DNA of 64,000 nt from Microbacterium sp. SL75 (GTDB taxonomy: Bacteria; Actinomycetota; Actinomycetes; Actinomycetales; Microbacteriaceae): positions 3,100,001-3,164,000 of the forward strand of contig NZ_CP113067.1 of assembly GCF_026625865.1 (NCBI RefSeq). Direction: 5' to 3'. Shown here piece after piece: positions 13,804-21,268 of the stretch. The first letter of the stretch is position 1. Each line of letters begins with the position of its first letter. Both the position numbers and the translations under genes were made by a program. The notes under the pieces are model-generated. The model searched no databases, had not been told where the DNA came from, and saw only the letters and a list, made by a program, of their open reading frames with translations.

Positions 13804-15126
13804 GTGGCAGACACGACAACCAAGACCCGCTCCCGGAGTGCGAAGGACACCGAACTCGAGAACTCCGAGGAGACCGTGACGGCGTCGAAGACGACGACCG
13901 CCAAGAAGGCCCCCGCGAAGAAGGCTCCGGCCAAGGCCAAGGCGGCCCCCGCCAAGGCGAAGACGAAGGCCAAGAAGGACGACGACCTCGAAGAAGACGA
14001 GGAAGACGTCGAAGTGGGCGATGTCGAGATCGACGACGCCGACGACAGCGACGACTCCGACGACGCGGCCAAGACAGACGCGAAGAAGTCCGACGACGAC
14101 GACGAGGACGAGACCCCGGCGGCGCCCGCCGAGGCCCTCCCCACCGGCGCGATCGTCATCTCGTCGAGCGACGAGGACGACGTCCCCGTCTACTCCGCGC
14201 AGATCACGGGCGCGACCGCCGACCCGGTCAAGGACTACCTGAAGCAGATCGGCAAGGTTCCGCTGCTGAACGCGGCCGAAGAGGTCGAGCTCGCCATGCG
14301 CATCGAGGCGGGTCTGTTCGCCGAAGAGAAGCTGTCGAACATGACCGCGGCCGAGAAGACGAGCCAACTCGGTCTCGATCTGCAGTGGGTCGCCCGTGAC
14401 GGTCAGCGTGCTAAGAGCCACCTGCTCGGCGCCAACCTCCGCCTGGTCGTCTCGCTCGCCAAGCGCTACACCGGTCGCGGCATGCAGTTCCTCGACCTGA
14501 TCCAGGAAGGCAACCTGGGCCTCATCCGTGCCGTCGAGAAGTTCGACTACACCAAGGGCTTCAAGTTCTCGACCTACGCCACCTGGTGGATCCGTCAGGC
14601 GATCACGCGTGCCATGGCCGACCAGGCCCGTACCATCCGTATCCCCGTGCACATGGTCGAGGTCATCAACAAGCTGGCTCGCGTTCAGCGCCAGATGCTG
14701 CAGGACCTCGGTCGCGAACCCACTCCGGAAGAACTGTCGCGCGAACTCGACATGACCCCCGAGAAGGTCATCGAGGTTCAGAAGTACGGCCGCGAGCCCA
14801 TCTCCCTGCACACCCCTCTCGGCGAGGACGGCGACAGCGAGTTCGGTGACCTCATCGAGGACACCGAGGCTGTCGTCCCGGCCGACGCGGTGGGCTTCAC
14901 CATGCTGCAGCGCCAGCTCGAGTCGCTCCTCGACTCGCTCAGCGAGCGCGAGGCGGGCGTGATCCGCATGCGCTTCGGCCTCGGCGACGGTCAGCCCAAG
15001 ACCCTCGACCAGATCGGCGACACGTTCGGCGTCACGCGCGAGCGTATCCGTCAGATCGAGTCGAAGACGATGGCGAAGCTGCGTCACCCGAGCCGTTCGC
15101 AGTCGCTTCGGGACTACCTCGAATGA
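13804..15126 (+). CDS. sigA: Primary sigma factor, SigA/HrdB type
   Basis: A 440-residue housekeeping sigma-70. Residues 1-135 are a low-complexity extension, first Lys/Ala rich and then strongly acidic, as in other actinobacterial primary sigma factors. Region 1.2 begins at [16 protein letters not shown]. Region 2 contains [25 protein letters not shown] and the -10-binding [11 protein letters not shown]. Regions 3 and 4 follow, ending with the [20 protein letters not shown] helix-turn-helix that reads the -35. The GTG start gives [10 protein letters not shown]. The stop overlaps the next start by 4 nt (ATGA). Confidence 0.97.
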
Positions 15127-15821
15127 GCGCGGAGGCCAACGCCGGCAAGGCGCTCACCGTCACCGTCGAGGGCACCTCGTACGCTCGCATCCCGATCCGC
15201 ACGCGGGTCGTCATGCCGGGTGACGACCTCGACGCCTTCATCCTCGAGTACGCGAAGGATGCCGTGCAGCCGGGCGACCTGCTGTTCGTCACCGAGAAGA
15301 TCGTCGCCATCACGCAGGGTCGTTCGTTCAAACTCGACACCATCAAGCCCCGAAAGCTGGCTCTGTTCCTGTCGAAGTACGTCACTCGCACGCCGTACGG
15401 CATCGGTCTCGGCATGCCCGAGACCATGGAGATGGCCCTGCGCGAATGCGGAACGCCCCGCATCCTGTTCGCCGCCGCCGTCTCGGCCGTGACCAAGGCG
15501 ATGGGTCGCAAGGGCGACTTCTACCGCATCGCCGGCGACAAGGCGCGCGCGATCGACGGCCCCACCAAGGGCACGATCCCGCCGTACAACCAGGCCGTCG
15601 TCCTCGGCCCTGAGCGTCCTCGCGAGGTCGCCGCGCGCCTGAAGTCGCTGCTCGGCGGTGACCTGCAGGTTGCCGTGGTCGACATCAACGACCTCGGTGG
15701 CAACATCCTCGGCTCCACGATGGACAAGGCCGGCGAGAAGCGTCTCGTCGCAATCCTGAAGGACAACCCGCTCGGCCAGGGACACGAGTCCACGCCGCTG
15801 GGTATCGTCCGCCACAGCTGA
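15123..15821 (+). CDS. F420-0:gamma-glutamyl ligase-like (CofE family) protein
   Basis: A 232-residue protein related to CofE/FbiB-type ligases. It opens with a [17 protein letters not shown] segment, continues with [17 protein letters not shown] and ends with a conserved acidic region ([15 protein letters not shown]). CofE adds glutamates to coenzyme F420. No other F420 biosynthesis gene is nearby and the protein lacks the FbiB nitroreductase extension, so its substrate is uncertain. The ATG overlaps the sigA stop, so its translation is likely coupled to that of the primary sigma factor. Confidence 0.82.
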
Positions 15822-15995: not shown

Positions 15996-17018
15996 TCAGA
16001 ACCCGATGGCGGCCTGGTAGCGCGGCTTGTGGCCGGTGCGGATTCCGGTGACGCTCGGCTTGTTCTCGTACACGCCGGCGCCCCAGTTGCCCTCGACGAG
16101 CACGGGTCCGTCGGGGCCGACGACGATGTCCCAGCCGACGTACTGCACCTGGGGCACGACGCGCGCGACCCGGTCGACGAACGCCTTCACGTCGTCGATC
16201 ATCGGCAGCTGGAAGTCGGCGATGCGCGCTCCCGAGTCGGGGTGCAGCTCGTGCACATGCCCGTGCGAGTCGTAGCCGGCGCCGAGGGCGTGGCCGTTCT
16301 CGTCGAGCATCGTGTAGAAGCCGCCGAAAGTCATCTGGTCGCTGACCGCTCCGCGGCCGAACTTCTGCGCCATCGCGAGGATGTGCGTCTTGTCTCCATC
16401 GAAGAAGGCCGTGACGCGCGTGGTGTTGACCGTGCCGGGGCAGACGGCCGCGAGGTCGTCGTGCTGGCGGATGACCTCTTCGACGAGGATCTCGCCGCGC
16501 TCGAGCAGCCCGCGGTGGAACTGCTCCCAGTCCTCGACCTCGGCCGCGTGGTAGCGGTGCACGCCGGTTCCGGCCTGACCGACCGGCTCCTTCGTGACGA
16601 TGGTGCCGAGACGCTCGGTGAAGGCGCGCAGCTCGTCGGCGTTGTCTGCGTCGACCACCATCCACTCGCGGCGGAGGAACTCGCTGAACGTGCGGTCGAA
16701 CTCGACCTTGTCCTGGAAGAGGCCGCGGTAGTCGGGGTGGTCGTACTTCTGCGAGATCTGGTTCGACACCGGATGCGTCATGTAGGTGGCGCGCTCGGCG
16801 GGGGTGAGGATCGCGAAGTCGTAGTCGATGTAGTCCTGGAAGCCGACGTTCTTCACACCCGCTTGGAACAGCATGTCGGCGACGACGAGCGGCAGGGCCT
16901 TGCCGTGCTGGGCCGAGGCTTCTTTGGCGCGTTCGACGACGGATCCGACGTCGATGCGGCGGGCGCGTCCGGCGAGGTAGCGAAGGCGCGTGACGGGGGA
17001 GAAACCCTGCTGAGGCAT
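15996..17018 (-). CDS. Sugar-transfer-associated ATP-grasp family protein
   Basis: A 340-residue protein resembling the ATPgrasp_ST family, predicted to act in cell-surface polymer synthesis. ATP-grasp hallmarks are the TIVTKEPVGQAGTGV lysine/glycine loop near residue 140, the GEILVEEVIRQH hinge, and the C-terminal metal and ATP ligands in YVGWDIVVGPDGPVLVEGNWGAG. ATP-grasp enzymes form acyl-phosphates and ligate them to amines or other nucleophiles; the substrate here is unknown. It diverges from two alanine-racemase-like genes across 44 bp with overlapping -10 elements, suggesting joint expression and perhaps a common cell-wall pathway. The ATG has CCGGAG 4 nt upstream. Confidence 0.8.
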   Translation of the reverse strand: MPQQGFSPVTRLRYLAGRARRIDVGSVVERAKEASAQHGKALPLVVADMLFQAGVKNVGFQDYIDYDFAILTPAERATYMTHPVSNQISQKYDHPDYRGLFQDKVEFDRTFSEFLRREWMVVDADNADELRAFTERLGTIVTKEPVGQAGTGVHRYHAAEVEDWEQFHRGLLERGEILVEEVIRQHDDLAAVCPGTVNTTRVTAFFDGDKTHILAMAQKFGRGAVSDQMTFGGFYTMLDENGHALGAGYDSHGHVHELHPDSGARIADFQLPMIDDVKAFVDRVARVVPQVQYVGWDIVVGPDGPVLVEGNWGAGVYENKPSVTGIRTGHKPRYQAAIGF

Positions 17019-17062: not shown

Positions 17063-17713
17063 GTGACCTCCACGCTCCCTGCCCGCTTGCCCGCGGCCGG
17101 GGGAGTGGCGCCCGTGGCGCTCGTCTCGGAGTCCGCCCTGCGTCAGAACGCCCCGCTCGCCCTCGCGGCCGGCACCGGCTCACGCGCCGACGACGTCTTC
17201 GCCGCCGATGCCTGGGGCCACGGCGCGGAGTGGGTGGCATCCGTGCTCTCGGATCTCGGGATGGATGCCGCACCCCTCGACGCCGCGGTCCTGTTCGGCC
17301 TGCCCGGCTCGCACGCTCGCCCCGTGCTGTCGCTGCGCGGTCGAGCGCTCGGGACCAAGCCCCTGCTGCGCGGCGAGGGCGTCTCGTACGGGTACACCCA
17401 CCGAGCGCCCCTCGACACCACCGTCGCCCTGGTGACCGGCGGCTACGCCCAGGGCGTCGTGCGATCCCTGGGCAACGCGGTCTCGGTCTCGATCGAGGGC
17501 CGACGTCATCGCATCGTCGGGCGCGTCGCCATGGACGTCTGCGTCGTCGACGTCGAAGACGCCGTCGTGCCGCGCGGCTCCGAGGTGGTCTTCTTCGGCG
17601 ACCCTGCCGCGGGTCACCCCTCGCTGCAGGAGTGGACGGATGCCACCGGCCTCACCCCAGCCGAGATCGTCGCCGTCGTGGGTGTCCGCGCGGATCGGAG
17701 GGTGACCGCGTGA
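17063..17713 (+). CDS. Alanine racemase-like protein, short form with the C-terminal catalytic domain
   Basis: A 216-residue relative of fold-III PLP alanine racemases. The first about 60 residues keep a trace of the barrel start, but the canonical VVKADAYGHG is VFAADAWGHG, so the PLP lysine is Ala47. Most of the barrel is then missing. The C-terminal domain is well conserved: GVSYGYTHR with the catalytic Tyr109, TGGYAQGVVRSLGN, GRVAMDVCVVDV, and a PSLQEW..ATGLTPAEIVAVVGVRADR tail. On its own it cannot form a Schiff base. Its stop overlaps the GTG of the next gene, which has the complementary pattern. Confidence 0.8.
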   Translation: MTSTLPARLPAAGGVAPVALVSESALRQNAPLALAAGTGSRADDVFAADAWGHGAEWVASVLSDLGMDAAPLDAAVLFGLPGSHARPVLSLRGRALGTKPLLRGEGVSYGYTHRAPLDTTVALVTGGYAQGVVRSLGNAVSVSIEGRRHRIVGRVAMDVCVVDVEDAVVPRGSEVVFFGDPAAGHPSLQEWTDATGLTPAEIVAVVGVRADRRVTA

Positions 17714-18753
17714 GCGCCGTCTACCGCGTCGACCTCGACGCTCTCGCCCGGAATCTCCGCCGCGTGCGCGAGGCCGTCGCCCCCGCCACTGCCATGCTCG
17801 TCGTCAAGGACGACGCCTACGCCCACGGGCTCGAACCGATCGTGAGGCGTGCCGTCGAAGAGGGCGTTCGCTGGATCGGCGCCTTCGACGTGGTCACCGG
17901 AACCGAGGTCCGCCGCATCGCCGGATCCGACGTCCGCATCTTCGTGTGGCTCATCGGCGGGAGCGACGACCTCGCCGCGGGCGTCGATGCCGACCTCGAC
18001 CTCGGTATCGGCGACGAAGCGCTGCTCGACGATCTCGCGGGTCTTCGCCTCGAGCGCCCCGCACGCGTGCACCTCAAGATCGACACGGGCCTGCACCGAA
18101 ACGGGATCCGTCCCGAGCGGTGGAACGCCGCACTCGCGCAGACCGCCGCGCTGGTCGCCGACGGCCGCGCCGTGTTCGAGGGCATCTGGTCCCACATCTC
18201 GGAAGCCTCGGATGCCGATGACGACGACGCCCGTGCGGTGTTCTTGGCGGCGCGGGAGACCGCGCGCGCCGCAGGGCTCGATCCCCGCTTCTCACATCTG
18301 GCCGCCAGTGCGGCAGGTTTCGCCCGGGGGGAGTTCCGGGAGGATCTGGTGCGCGTCGGGGCGTTCTCGTACGGCATCCGTCCCGCCGGCGGACCCAGCG
18401 AGGTCGAGCTGGGCATCGAGGCGATCAGCCGCCTCACCGCCACGGTGACCGCCGTCGACGCCGCGGGCGTCCACCTCGACGTCGGAAGCCTGCACGGGCT
18501 GCCGAGCGCCCTCGGCGGACGTTTCGACGCGCCCACGCCGGACGGGCCTCGCCGCGTCGAGGCCATCACCCCGACCGAGACGGTGCTCGCCCCGTGGGCG
18601 GGCGCCGCTCCCGGTGACGAGATCGTGCTGTTCGGCTCGGGCGCCCTCTACGGCGTCACCGACCTCGCCGAACTCATCGACACGATCGGCGAAGAGATCG
18701 CGTTGCGCGTGTCTCCCACCGTGCCGAGGTCCTATCTCACCGATCGAGCCTGA
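17710..18753 (+). CDS. Alanine racemase-like protein, long form with the PLP barrel
   Basis: A 347-residue protein with a complete PLP barrel: Lys33 in VVKDDAYAHG, Arg130 in KIDTGLHRNG, the histidine in WSHISEASDAD, and ASAAGFARG to GAFSYGIRP. Its C-terminal domain is divergent: no VSYG motif with the second catalytic tyrosine and no MDQ-type motif, although the VSPTVPRSYL tail remains. In known racemases the active site joins the lysine of one subunit and the tyrosine of the other, so a heterodimer with the preceding protein would rebuild one site. Substrate could be alanine or a diamino acid such as Orn or Lys; the sequence does not say. Confidence 0.85.
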   Translation: MSAVYRVDLDALARNLRRVREAVAPATAMLVVKDDAYAHGLEPIVRRAVEEGVRWIGAFDVVTGTEVRRIAGSDVRIFVWLIGGSDDLAAGVDADLDLGIGDEALLDDLAGLRLERPARVHLKIDTGLHRNGIRPERWNAALAQTAALVADGRAVFEGIWSHISEASDADDDDARAVFLAARETARAAGLDPRFSHLAASAAGFARGEFREDLVRVGAFSYGIRPAGGPSEVELGIEAISRLTATVTAVDAAGVHLDVGSLHGLPSALGGRFDAPTPDGPRRVEAITPTETVLAPWAGAAPGDEIVLFGSGALYGVTDLAELIDTIGEEIALRVSPTVPRSYLTDRA

Positions 18754-19033: not shown

Positions 19034-19184
19034 GTCGGGTGCCCTCCTCAGGTGGTCGTGGGCGAGTCTCCATATACAACCACGCGGATGTTTCCCCTAT
19101 GCCGCGGCTTGATCACATTTCGCTGTGCGCGTACGGTGACCCGACCCGCCTGTGTGTCTGGCAGTGGATGTCGGTGGCCCCGAT

Positions 19185-19190
19185 TACGCT
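19185..19190 (+). promoter_or_regulatory. -10 element (TACGCT) of parE
   Basis: TACGCT ends 8 nt before the GTG at 19199. The surrounding CGATTACGCT is the same as at the RDD-gene promoter (5574-5583). Confidence 0.5.
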
Positions 19191-19198
19191 CAGAGATC

Positions 19199-21268
<2,070 letters not shown>

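Follow-up and report, generated by a model that had tools for sequence, protein, structure and literature searches.

Two overlapping genes of Microbacterium sp. SL75 encode proteins of the alanine racemase (Alr) fold, each of which has lost a part of the catalytic residues that the other retains. The genes lie in a stretch of 64,000 nucleotides of contig NZ_CP113067.1, the whole of which is called here the window. That the two chains belong to one heteromer with a composite active site is strongly supported by the residues conserved in the pair and in its relatives. We consider it likely that they form a two-subunit, PLP-dependent racemase of the Alr fold, which would make a D-diamino acid for the cross-bridge of type-B peptidoglycan. 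If so, one active site of an amino-acid racemase would be restored from two degenerate halves, and living genera would still show intermediate stages of this evolution as well as fusions. The locus would also offer candidates, open to experiment, for the genes behind the D-diamino acid of type-B peptidoglycan and behind its cross-bridge ligase. In the open-access literature, covered largely through listings, we found no description of a heterodimeric Alr or of a Microbacteriaceae racemase of this kind, and no genes described for the type-B D-diamino acid or the cross-bridge ligase.

Catalytic residues of the two chains

The two genes and their neighbours are listed in Table 1.

Table 1 Features of the racemase locus in the window
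Feature	Position	Strand	Description
Principal sigma factor sigA	13804..15126	+	Marks the left edge of the conserved locus
CofE-like protein (F420-0:glutamate ligase family, PF01996)	15123..15821	+	232 aa; possible second amide-forming ligase
ATP-grasp protein, divergent (PF14397)	15996..17018	-	340 aa; candidate partner of the racemase, as an amino-acid ligase
Short (first) subunit	17063..17713	+	216 aa; Alr C-terminal domain and remnant of the first barrel segment
Stop/start overlap GTGA	17710..17713	+	4 nt; joins the short and long genes
Long (second) subunit	17710..18753	+	347 aa; complete barrel; Tyr and Met-Asp segments absent from the C-terminal domain
Type II topoisomerase B subunit (presumably parE)	19052..21268	+	ORF only; right border of the conserved locus

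Residues were assigned by alignment to solved alanine racemases and to the intact Alr of the same genome. The short protein contains Pfam domain PF00842 at residues 88-213 (101.5 bits, cut-off 25). It keeps Tyr109, within the motif GEGVSYGY, and Met157-Asp158, and has Ala47 in the column of the PLP lysine. The long protein contains PF01168 at residues 7-225 (152 bits, cut-off 24.1), and its C-terminal domain matches PF00842 with only 19.7 bits, under the cut-off of 25. Lys33, Arg130, His162 and Arg215 are kept; the Tyr loop and the Met-Asp motif are absent. Alignment and Pfam therefore agree with the earlier note on this DNA. It had described a first protein with the C-terminal domain, the VSYG tyrosine and the MD motif, an alanine for the lysine and most of the barrel gone, and a second protein with the lysine, Arg130 and the barrel histidine, lacking VSYG and MD. 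The alignment to structurally known Alr proteins, which the note had proposed as a check, shows the complementary loss that it claimed, and the 4-nt overlap of the two reading frames is also as it had reported.

AlphaFold2 models, calculated for each chain singly, have mean pLDDT values of 90.3 (short) and 94.5 (long). The short model matches Mycobacterium tuberculosis Alr over 202 residues (rmsd 2.7) and retains the remnant of the first barrel segment. The long model matches Alr over 345 residues (rmsd 1.7). Thus, the Alr fold is recognised by PF01168 in the long chain, by PF00842 in the short chain and by the racemase fold of the predicted structures. Neither chain reaches the cut-off of 168 bits of TIGR00492, the NCBIfam equivalog for alanine racemase (short 90.6 bits, long 114 bits), and neither carries both the PLP lysine and Tyr265, as a subunit of a homodimer would (residue numbers such as Lys39 and Tyr265 are those of Geobacillus Alr). 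The same genome, of 3.44 Mb, has a separate intact Alr at about C1:1875527-1876606 with the lysine, the tyrosine, Met-Asp and the gate tyrosine kept, which rules out the pair as the sole Alr of the cell.

In Alr, the catalytic pair Lys39 and Tyr265' comes from different subunits, as described in PMC3485190. In a heterodimer of the two chains, the long subunit would supply the barrel with the PLP lysine Lys33, Arg130, His162 and Arg215, and the short subunit would reach across the dimer interface with Tyr109, as second catalytic base, and with its Met157-Asp158 loop. Such a heterodimer would contain one working active site, not two, so that neither chain should work alone. Judged from the fusions, the adjacency and the complementary residues, the short and long chains very probably associate physically, and it is probable that the pair has racemase activity.

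The residues were followed in two sets of relatives. One consists of 80 named loci found through the short gene (80 of 177 relatives, mostly Microbacterium) and 7 further pairs, together 87 pairs. The other was hand-chosen from the matches of a long-subunit profile in a survey of 259 Microbacteriaceae genomes; it covers 26 genera with 40 regions, each genus contributing between one and three. The sets hold 124 distinct pairs, since G227 and G137 occur in both and L070 and L071 are duplicates; beyond those overlaps, no identical long proteins occur among the tabulated pairs. L070 and L071 are two scaffolds of M. stercoris NEAU-LLB on which the pair does not differ in coordinates or scores, which represents a duplication or an assembly artefact.

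Among the 87 pairs, the first subunit has a lysine at position 39 in 0 of 85 lettered rows (2 gaps) and keeps Tyr265, Tyr284 and Met312 in 87/87. These three residues are not conserved in the long subunits, which keep Lys39, Tyr43, Lys129, Arg136 and His166 in 87/87 and Tyr265 in 0/87. Arg219 of the long subunit is kept in 86 of the 87 (1 gap) and in 40/40 regions of the second set. In that set, all 40 first subunits keep the Tyr and the Met, and the lysine is found in 0 of 38 lettered rows (2 gaps), a count in which the alignment of the lysine column means little for a few strongly eroded N-termini. All 40 second subunits keep the lysine and lack the tyrosine. The PLP lysine and Tyr265 are thus on different subunits in 87/87 and 40/40 cases, the halves of a fused chain being counted separately. 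On these alignments, the complementary pattern is far beyond chance. The overlap of the two genes measures exactly 4 nt in 77 of the 80 named pairs. In 39 further pairs, a start codon is present at the exact overlap position in 33, the start nearest to that position being the one chosen. Compared with seven relatives, both genes give pN/pS values of 0.19-0.61, the ratio rising with distance as synonymous sites near saturation.

Distribution and origin of the pair

The long gene directly follows the short gene in 80/80 named loci. Two adjacent Alr-like genes, in one case a single fused frame, are present in 40/40 regions chosen from long-gene matches. Pairing was also seen in all of the best 30 long-gene matches of the family survey, judged by motif patterns instead of alignment (of these genomes, 9 are new, 16 belong to the 40 regions as well, and 5 are in or behind the 87-pair set). 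The adjacency that the earlier note wanted surveyed in Microbacteriaceae was found in each of these overlapping sets. The note had held that either gene occurring alone between intact neighbours would refute a two-subunit enzyme. Two pair-less Microbacterium genomes from the order-level survey described below were examined (G454 and G484). Both genes are missing together, and the CofE-like gene, the ATP-grasp gene and parE are retained at the locus.

With the long gene as query, 99 of 119 Microbacterium genomes give a long-type match (E 1.5e-104 or better); in the remaining 20 only matches of canonical strength (1.1e-78 or weaker) are found, and the gap between the two classes is clear inside the genus. 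Across the family, many genera have only one Alr match each. There, the E-value alone does not separate the pair from an intact Alr, since intact canonical enzymes of genus g80 reach 3.9e-92 and the weakest verified pair of the 40 regions has 2.7e-82 (G073). In an order-level survey of 198 genomes (16 in the family, 182 outside), the best match outside the family was only 6.3e-78, and the pair is likely confined to Microbacteriaceae. Among plasmids, a search found nothing beyond alr-type matches to the C-terminal domain, and no match covers 80% of the short protein. One contig labelled Planococcus sp. APC 4015 (L075) carries an actinobacterial pair and is probably contaminated or mislabelled. 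Similarly odd labels are attached to P0186 (Rhynchospora), P0116 (Coraliomargarita plasmid), P0125 (Rhodococcus) and P0245 (Acidobacteria), whose contig is as long as that of L166.

In three genera, g58, g9 and g54, a full-length first subunit persists in which Asp, Thr or Gly takes the place of the lysine. Thus, catalytic loss can precede deletion of the barrel. Complete short-long fusions are represented by P0246 and P0263 (601 and 607 aa), and P0256 is a short-long fusion that begins inside the first half. In genus g85, both parts form one open frame in G243, which was read, and in G283, where only the motifs were followed.

In a tree of 59 sequences, the long subunits form one group (100/100) together with three intact single-chain enzymes, each encoded by the second gene of a tandem alr pair (genera g8 and g32; L102, L105 and L107). 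The full-length first subunits (99/97) are placed with canonical Alr, beside the first genes of the g32 tandem pairs (98/97); the branches of first subunits are long, and their exact placement is less sure. As the tree places the halves in two separate Alr lineages, a direct derivation of one half from the other was rejected. The earlier note had proposed duplication followed by complementary loss. The fusions and the full-length first subunits without lysine fit this scenario, with the refinement that in the tree the halves belong to separate Alr lineages, not to each other. Within the long-subunit group, the intact enzymes with an acidic gate residue sit at two places, which suggests that the tyrosine may have been lost at least twice in this clade; a regain is the alternative. 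The tandem enzymes L102, L105 and L107, with an acidic gate in the second gene, are themselves candidate single-chain diamino-acid racemases.

Specificity gate and cell-wall locus

The restriction of Alr to alanine is ascribed to a tyrosine at the inner gate (Tyr354 in Geobacillus, Tyr361 in S. lavendulae, Tyr364 in M. tuberculosis), and the gate is Thr391 in Lyr and Ala393 in Bar, which prefer lysine or are broad in specificity (PMC3485190). In the window, Glu328 of the long subunit aligns with Tyr361 of S. lavendulae Alr. The gate residue is Glu in all 86 readable long subunits of the 87-pair set, whereas the 40 regions divide equally between Glu and Asp (20 each). The gate tyrosine is thus replaced in the long subunits, as in racemases of the lysine/ornithine type. 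Single-chain Alr proteins of the family have the gate tyrosine in 17 of 20 cases, the other three being the tandem second genes, which are acidic at the gate and retain their own Tyr and Met-Asp. Four more single-chain Alr proteins, of genus g80, also have the gate tyrosine.

An acidic gate would suit a basic side chain; against this, the known lysine racemases carry Thr or Ala at the gate and no acidic residue. From the gate, the separate intact Alr and the cell-wall locus, we infer that the pair is probably not an alanine racemase. The two-subunit racemase of the earlier note is supported by the residues, the linkage and the fusions, but its substrate is probably not alanine. The acidic gate residues together with the genomic setting suggest a basic diamino acid, which would be ornithine in this lineage and lysine or 2,4-diaminobutyrate in others.

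In type-B peptidoglycan, the cross-bridge sits on the alpha-carboxyl of D-Glu, and to our knowledge a type-B wall is general in Microbacteriaceae. The locus is bordered by sigA, found upstream of the pair in 72 of the 80 named loci and present in 38 of the 40 regions, and by the topoisomerase gene, presumably parE (77/80 and 40/40). The complete order sigA, short, long, parE is seen in 70/80; in the rest, sigA or parE is elsewhere, beyond the available sequence or out of order. The CofE-like gene, directly after sigA in the window, is present in 66/80 named loci. Its product scores under the NCBIfam cut-offs for CofE itself and is possibly a cell-wall amino-acid ligase. The ATP-grasp gene is the single PF14397 match of the window genome, and a member of this family is found in 71/80 named loci. 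In 9/80, an ATP-grasp paralogue lies directly upstream of the pair and in its direction; 5 of these 9 also carry a MurJ-type lipid II flippase. In L027, L031, L036, L072 and L087, the flippase gene, upstream of the pair, is flanked by the CofE-like gene on one side and by two ATP-grasp genes on the other.

Other loci carry MurT-GatD. Among the 80 named loci, 66 have CofE-like and ATP-grasp genes, 7 have MurT-GatD (some 6 kb from the pair in L086, and with a CofE-like gene in 0/7), 5 have ATP-grasp without CofE in the available sequence and 2 have none of these. The 40 regions comprise 20 with MurT-GatD, 14 with CofE and ATP-grasp (2 with MurJ), 3 with CofE alone, 1 with MurT and CofE and 2 with none. 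In a number of these regions the pair is on the strand opposite MurT-GatD, so that the two are not one operon there. MurT_C (PF08353) has no match in the window genome. A link of the pair with MurT-GatD alone was therefore rejected as too narrow, most named loci having CofE-like and ATP-grasp genes.

GatD copies next to sigA or the pair lack the catalytic cysteine in 15/15, 18/18 and 21/21 cases, three counts that share genomes (at least G227 and G106). The cysteine is kept in 19/19 other copies (L188-L206), which are the best PF08353 scores and have no sigA within the roughly 3.3 kb examined. The GatD histidine is Gln in 15/15 of one set and still His in 11/21 and in most of the 18. In S. aureus, the GatD variants C94A and H189A are inactive (PMC5871853). 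Without the catalytic cysteine, amidation with glutamine is unlikely, and what the machinery attaches to the D-Glu alpha-carboxyl looks to be something else than ammonia from glutamine. MurT-GatD adjoining sigA with a cysteine-less GatD is seen in many Microbacteriaceae, including L043, L044, L064, L065, L069, L085 and L086. Eighteen regions have sigA-linked MurT-GatD and no Alr-like gene found in the region. These regions and the pair-less genomes indicate that the racemase is optional at this locus.

In the proposed pathway, the D-form would enter the type-B cross-bridge through the neighbouring ligases, ATP-grasp/CofE-like here and MurT with glutaminase-dead GatD in other genera. A D-diamino acid for the wall is the best-supported guess for the product, which we rate slightly above even. 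More tentatively, at somewhat under even, the pair would be the racemase for the type-B D-diamino acid and MurT with dead GatD (or CofE-like with ATP-grasp) the cross-bridge ligase acting on the D-Glu alpha-carboxyl.

D-Orn, L-Lys or Dab is present in members of Microbacterium, and M. enclense is reported with L-lysine, according to PMC10757982; passages of PMC6113628 give wall data for a few genera only. M. enclense NIO-1002 (L033) carries the pair, which contradicts a strict rule that the pair means D-ornithine. The pair-less genomes that retain the ligase genes would be accounted for if they came from L-Lys species, in which the ligases would be needed and a racemase would not. A wall role is weakened by M. 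enclense, by the 20 of 119 genomes without a long-type match, by the one-Alr genera and by the 2 of 40 regions without such ligase genes.

Alternative readings and known systems

The closest solved relatives are alanine racemases, and most source names among those listed read alanine racemase, so the pair could be a heterodimeric racemase whose product is D-alanine, either as a second Alr or as an isozyme for special conditions. We regard this as unlikely. The genome has a separate intact Alr, every readable long subunit has Glu or Asp at the gate, and charged gate residues lowered the alanine activity of another Alr (PMC4517790). The pair is also linked to genes of cross-bridge type, and the long subunits form with the single-chain acid-gate enzymes one clade apart from canonical Alr. 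Less probable still is a long subunit that is active by itself, possibly as a homodimer whose second base has changed, with the short protein as a non-catalytic regulator or stabiliser. The long chain does keep the whole barrel and has a confident, complete predicted fold. However, the first subunits never vary at Tyr265, Tyr284 and Met312, which the long ones do not conserve, one-chain fusions exist, and the three single-chain acid-gate relatives retain their own Tyr and Met-Asp.

Fold type III also includes decarboxylases. A shared PLP site could catalyse another reaction on an amino acid, such as decarboxylation or epimerisation in a peptide- or lipid-linked precursor, to which we give a small probability. 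It is opposed by the retention of both racemase bases between the two chains and by the near-invariance of Arg219 in the long subunits, a residue for which a role in favouring racemisation, by making protonation of the pyridine nitrogen less favourable, has been proposed (PMC3245724). Each chain alone lacks essential residues, as decaying duplicates or a sequencing artefact would, but the pair occurs in 26 genera with invariant complementary residues, under purifying selection (pN/pS) and with a conserved 4-nt overlap. Conservation, selection and overlap rule out a pseudogene or frameshift artefact, and the chance of decay or artefact is negligible. The preferred reading is the two-subunit racemase for a D-diamino acid of the wall.

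Among the closest known systems is Alr/DadX (EC 5.1.1.1, a PLP enzyme of fold type III). The pair shares with it the fold, the PLP lysine, Arg136, His166, Arg219, the opposite-subunit Tyr265 and the Met-Asp loop. Unlike Alr/DadX, the pair would consist of two unlike chains with half of the catalytic set each and one site per dimer; its gate Tyr354 is Glu or Asp, and neither chain reaches the TIGR00492 cut-off. Lyr and Bar also have the gate Tyr354 replaced. In contrast to the pair, they are dimers of one complete chain and their gate is not acidic, and the pair sits in a locus for cell-wall precursors.

In Enterococcus faecium, the racemase gene RacD lies beside Aslfm, an ATP-grasp D-Asp ligase feeding peptidoglycan. 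The window locus likewise has a racemase gene adjoining an ATP-grasp gene, whose ligase role would be analogous, whereas RacD has another racemase fold and another substrate. The MurT-GatD lipid II amidotransferase is represented by the same two genes beside the pair in 20/40 regions and 7/80 named loci, but GatD near the pair is without the catalytic Cys. Finally, in trypanosomatids, AdoMetDC and its prozyme are an active/inactive paralogue pair needed for activity. In the racemase pair, by contrast, each chain would contribute part of the catalytic residues of a single joint site.
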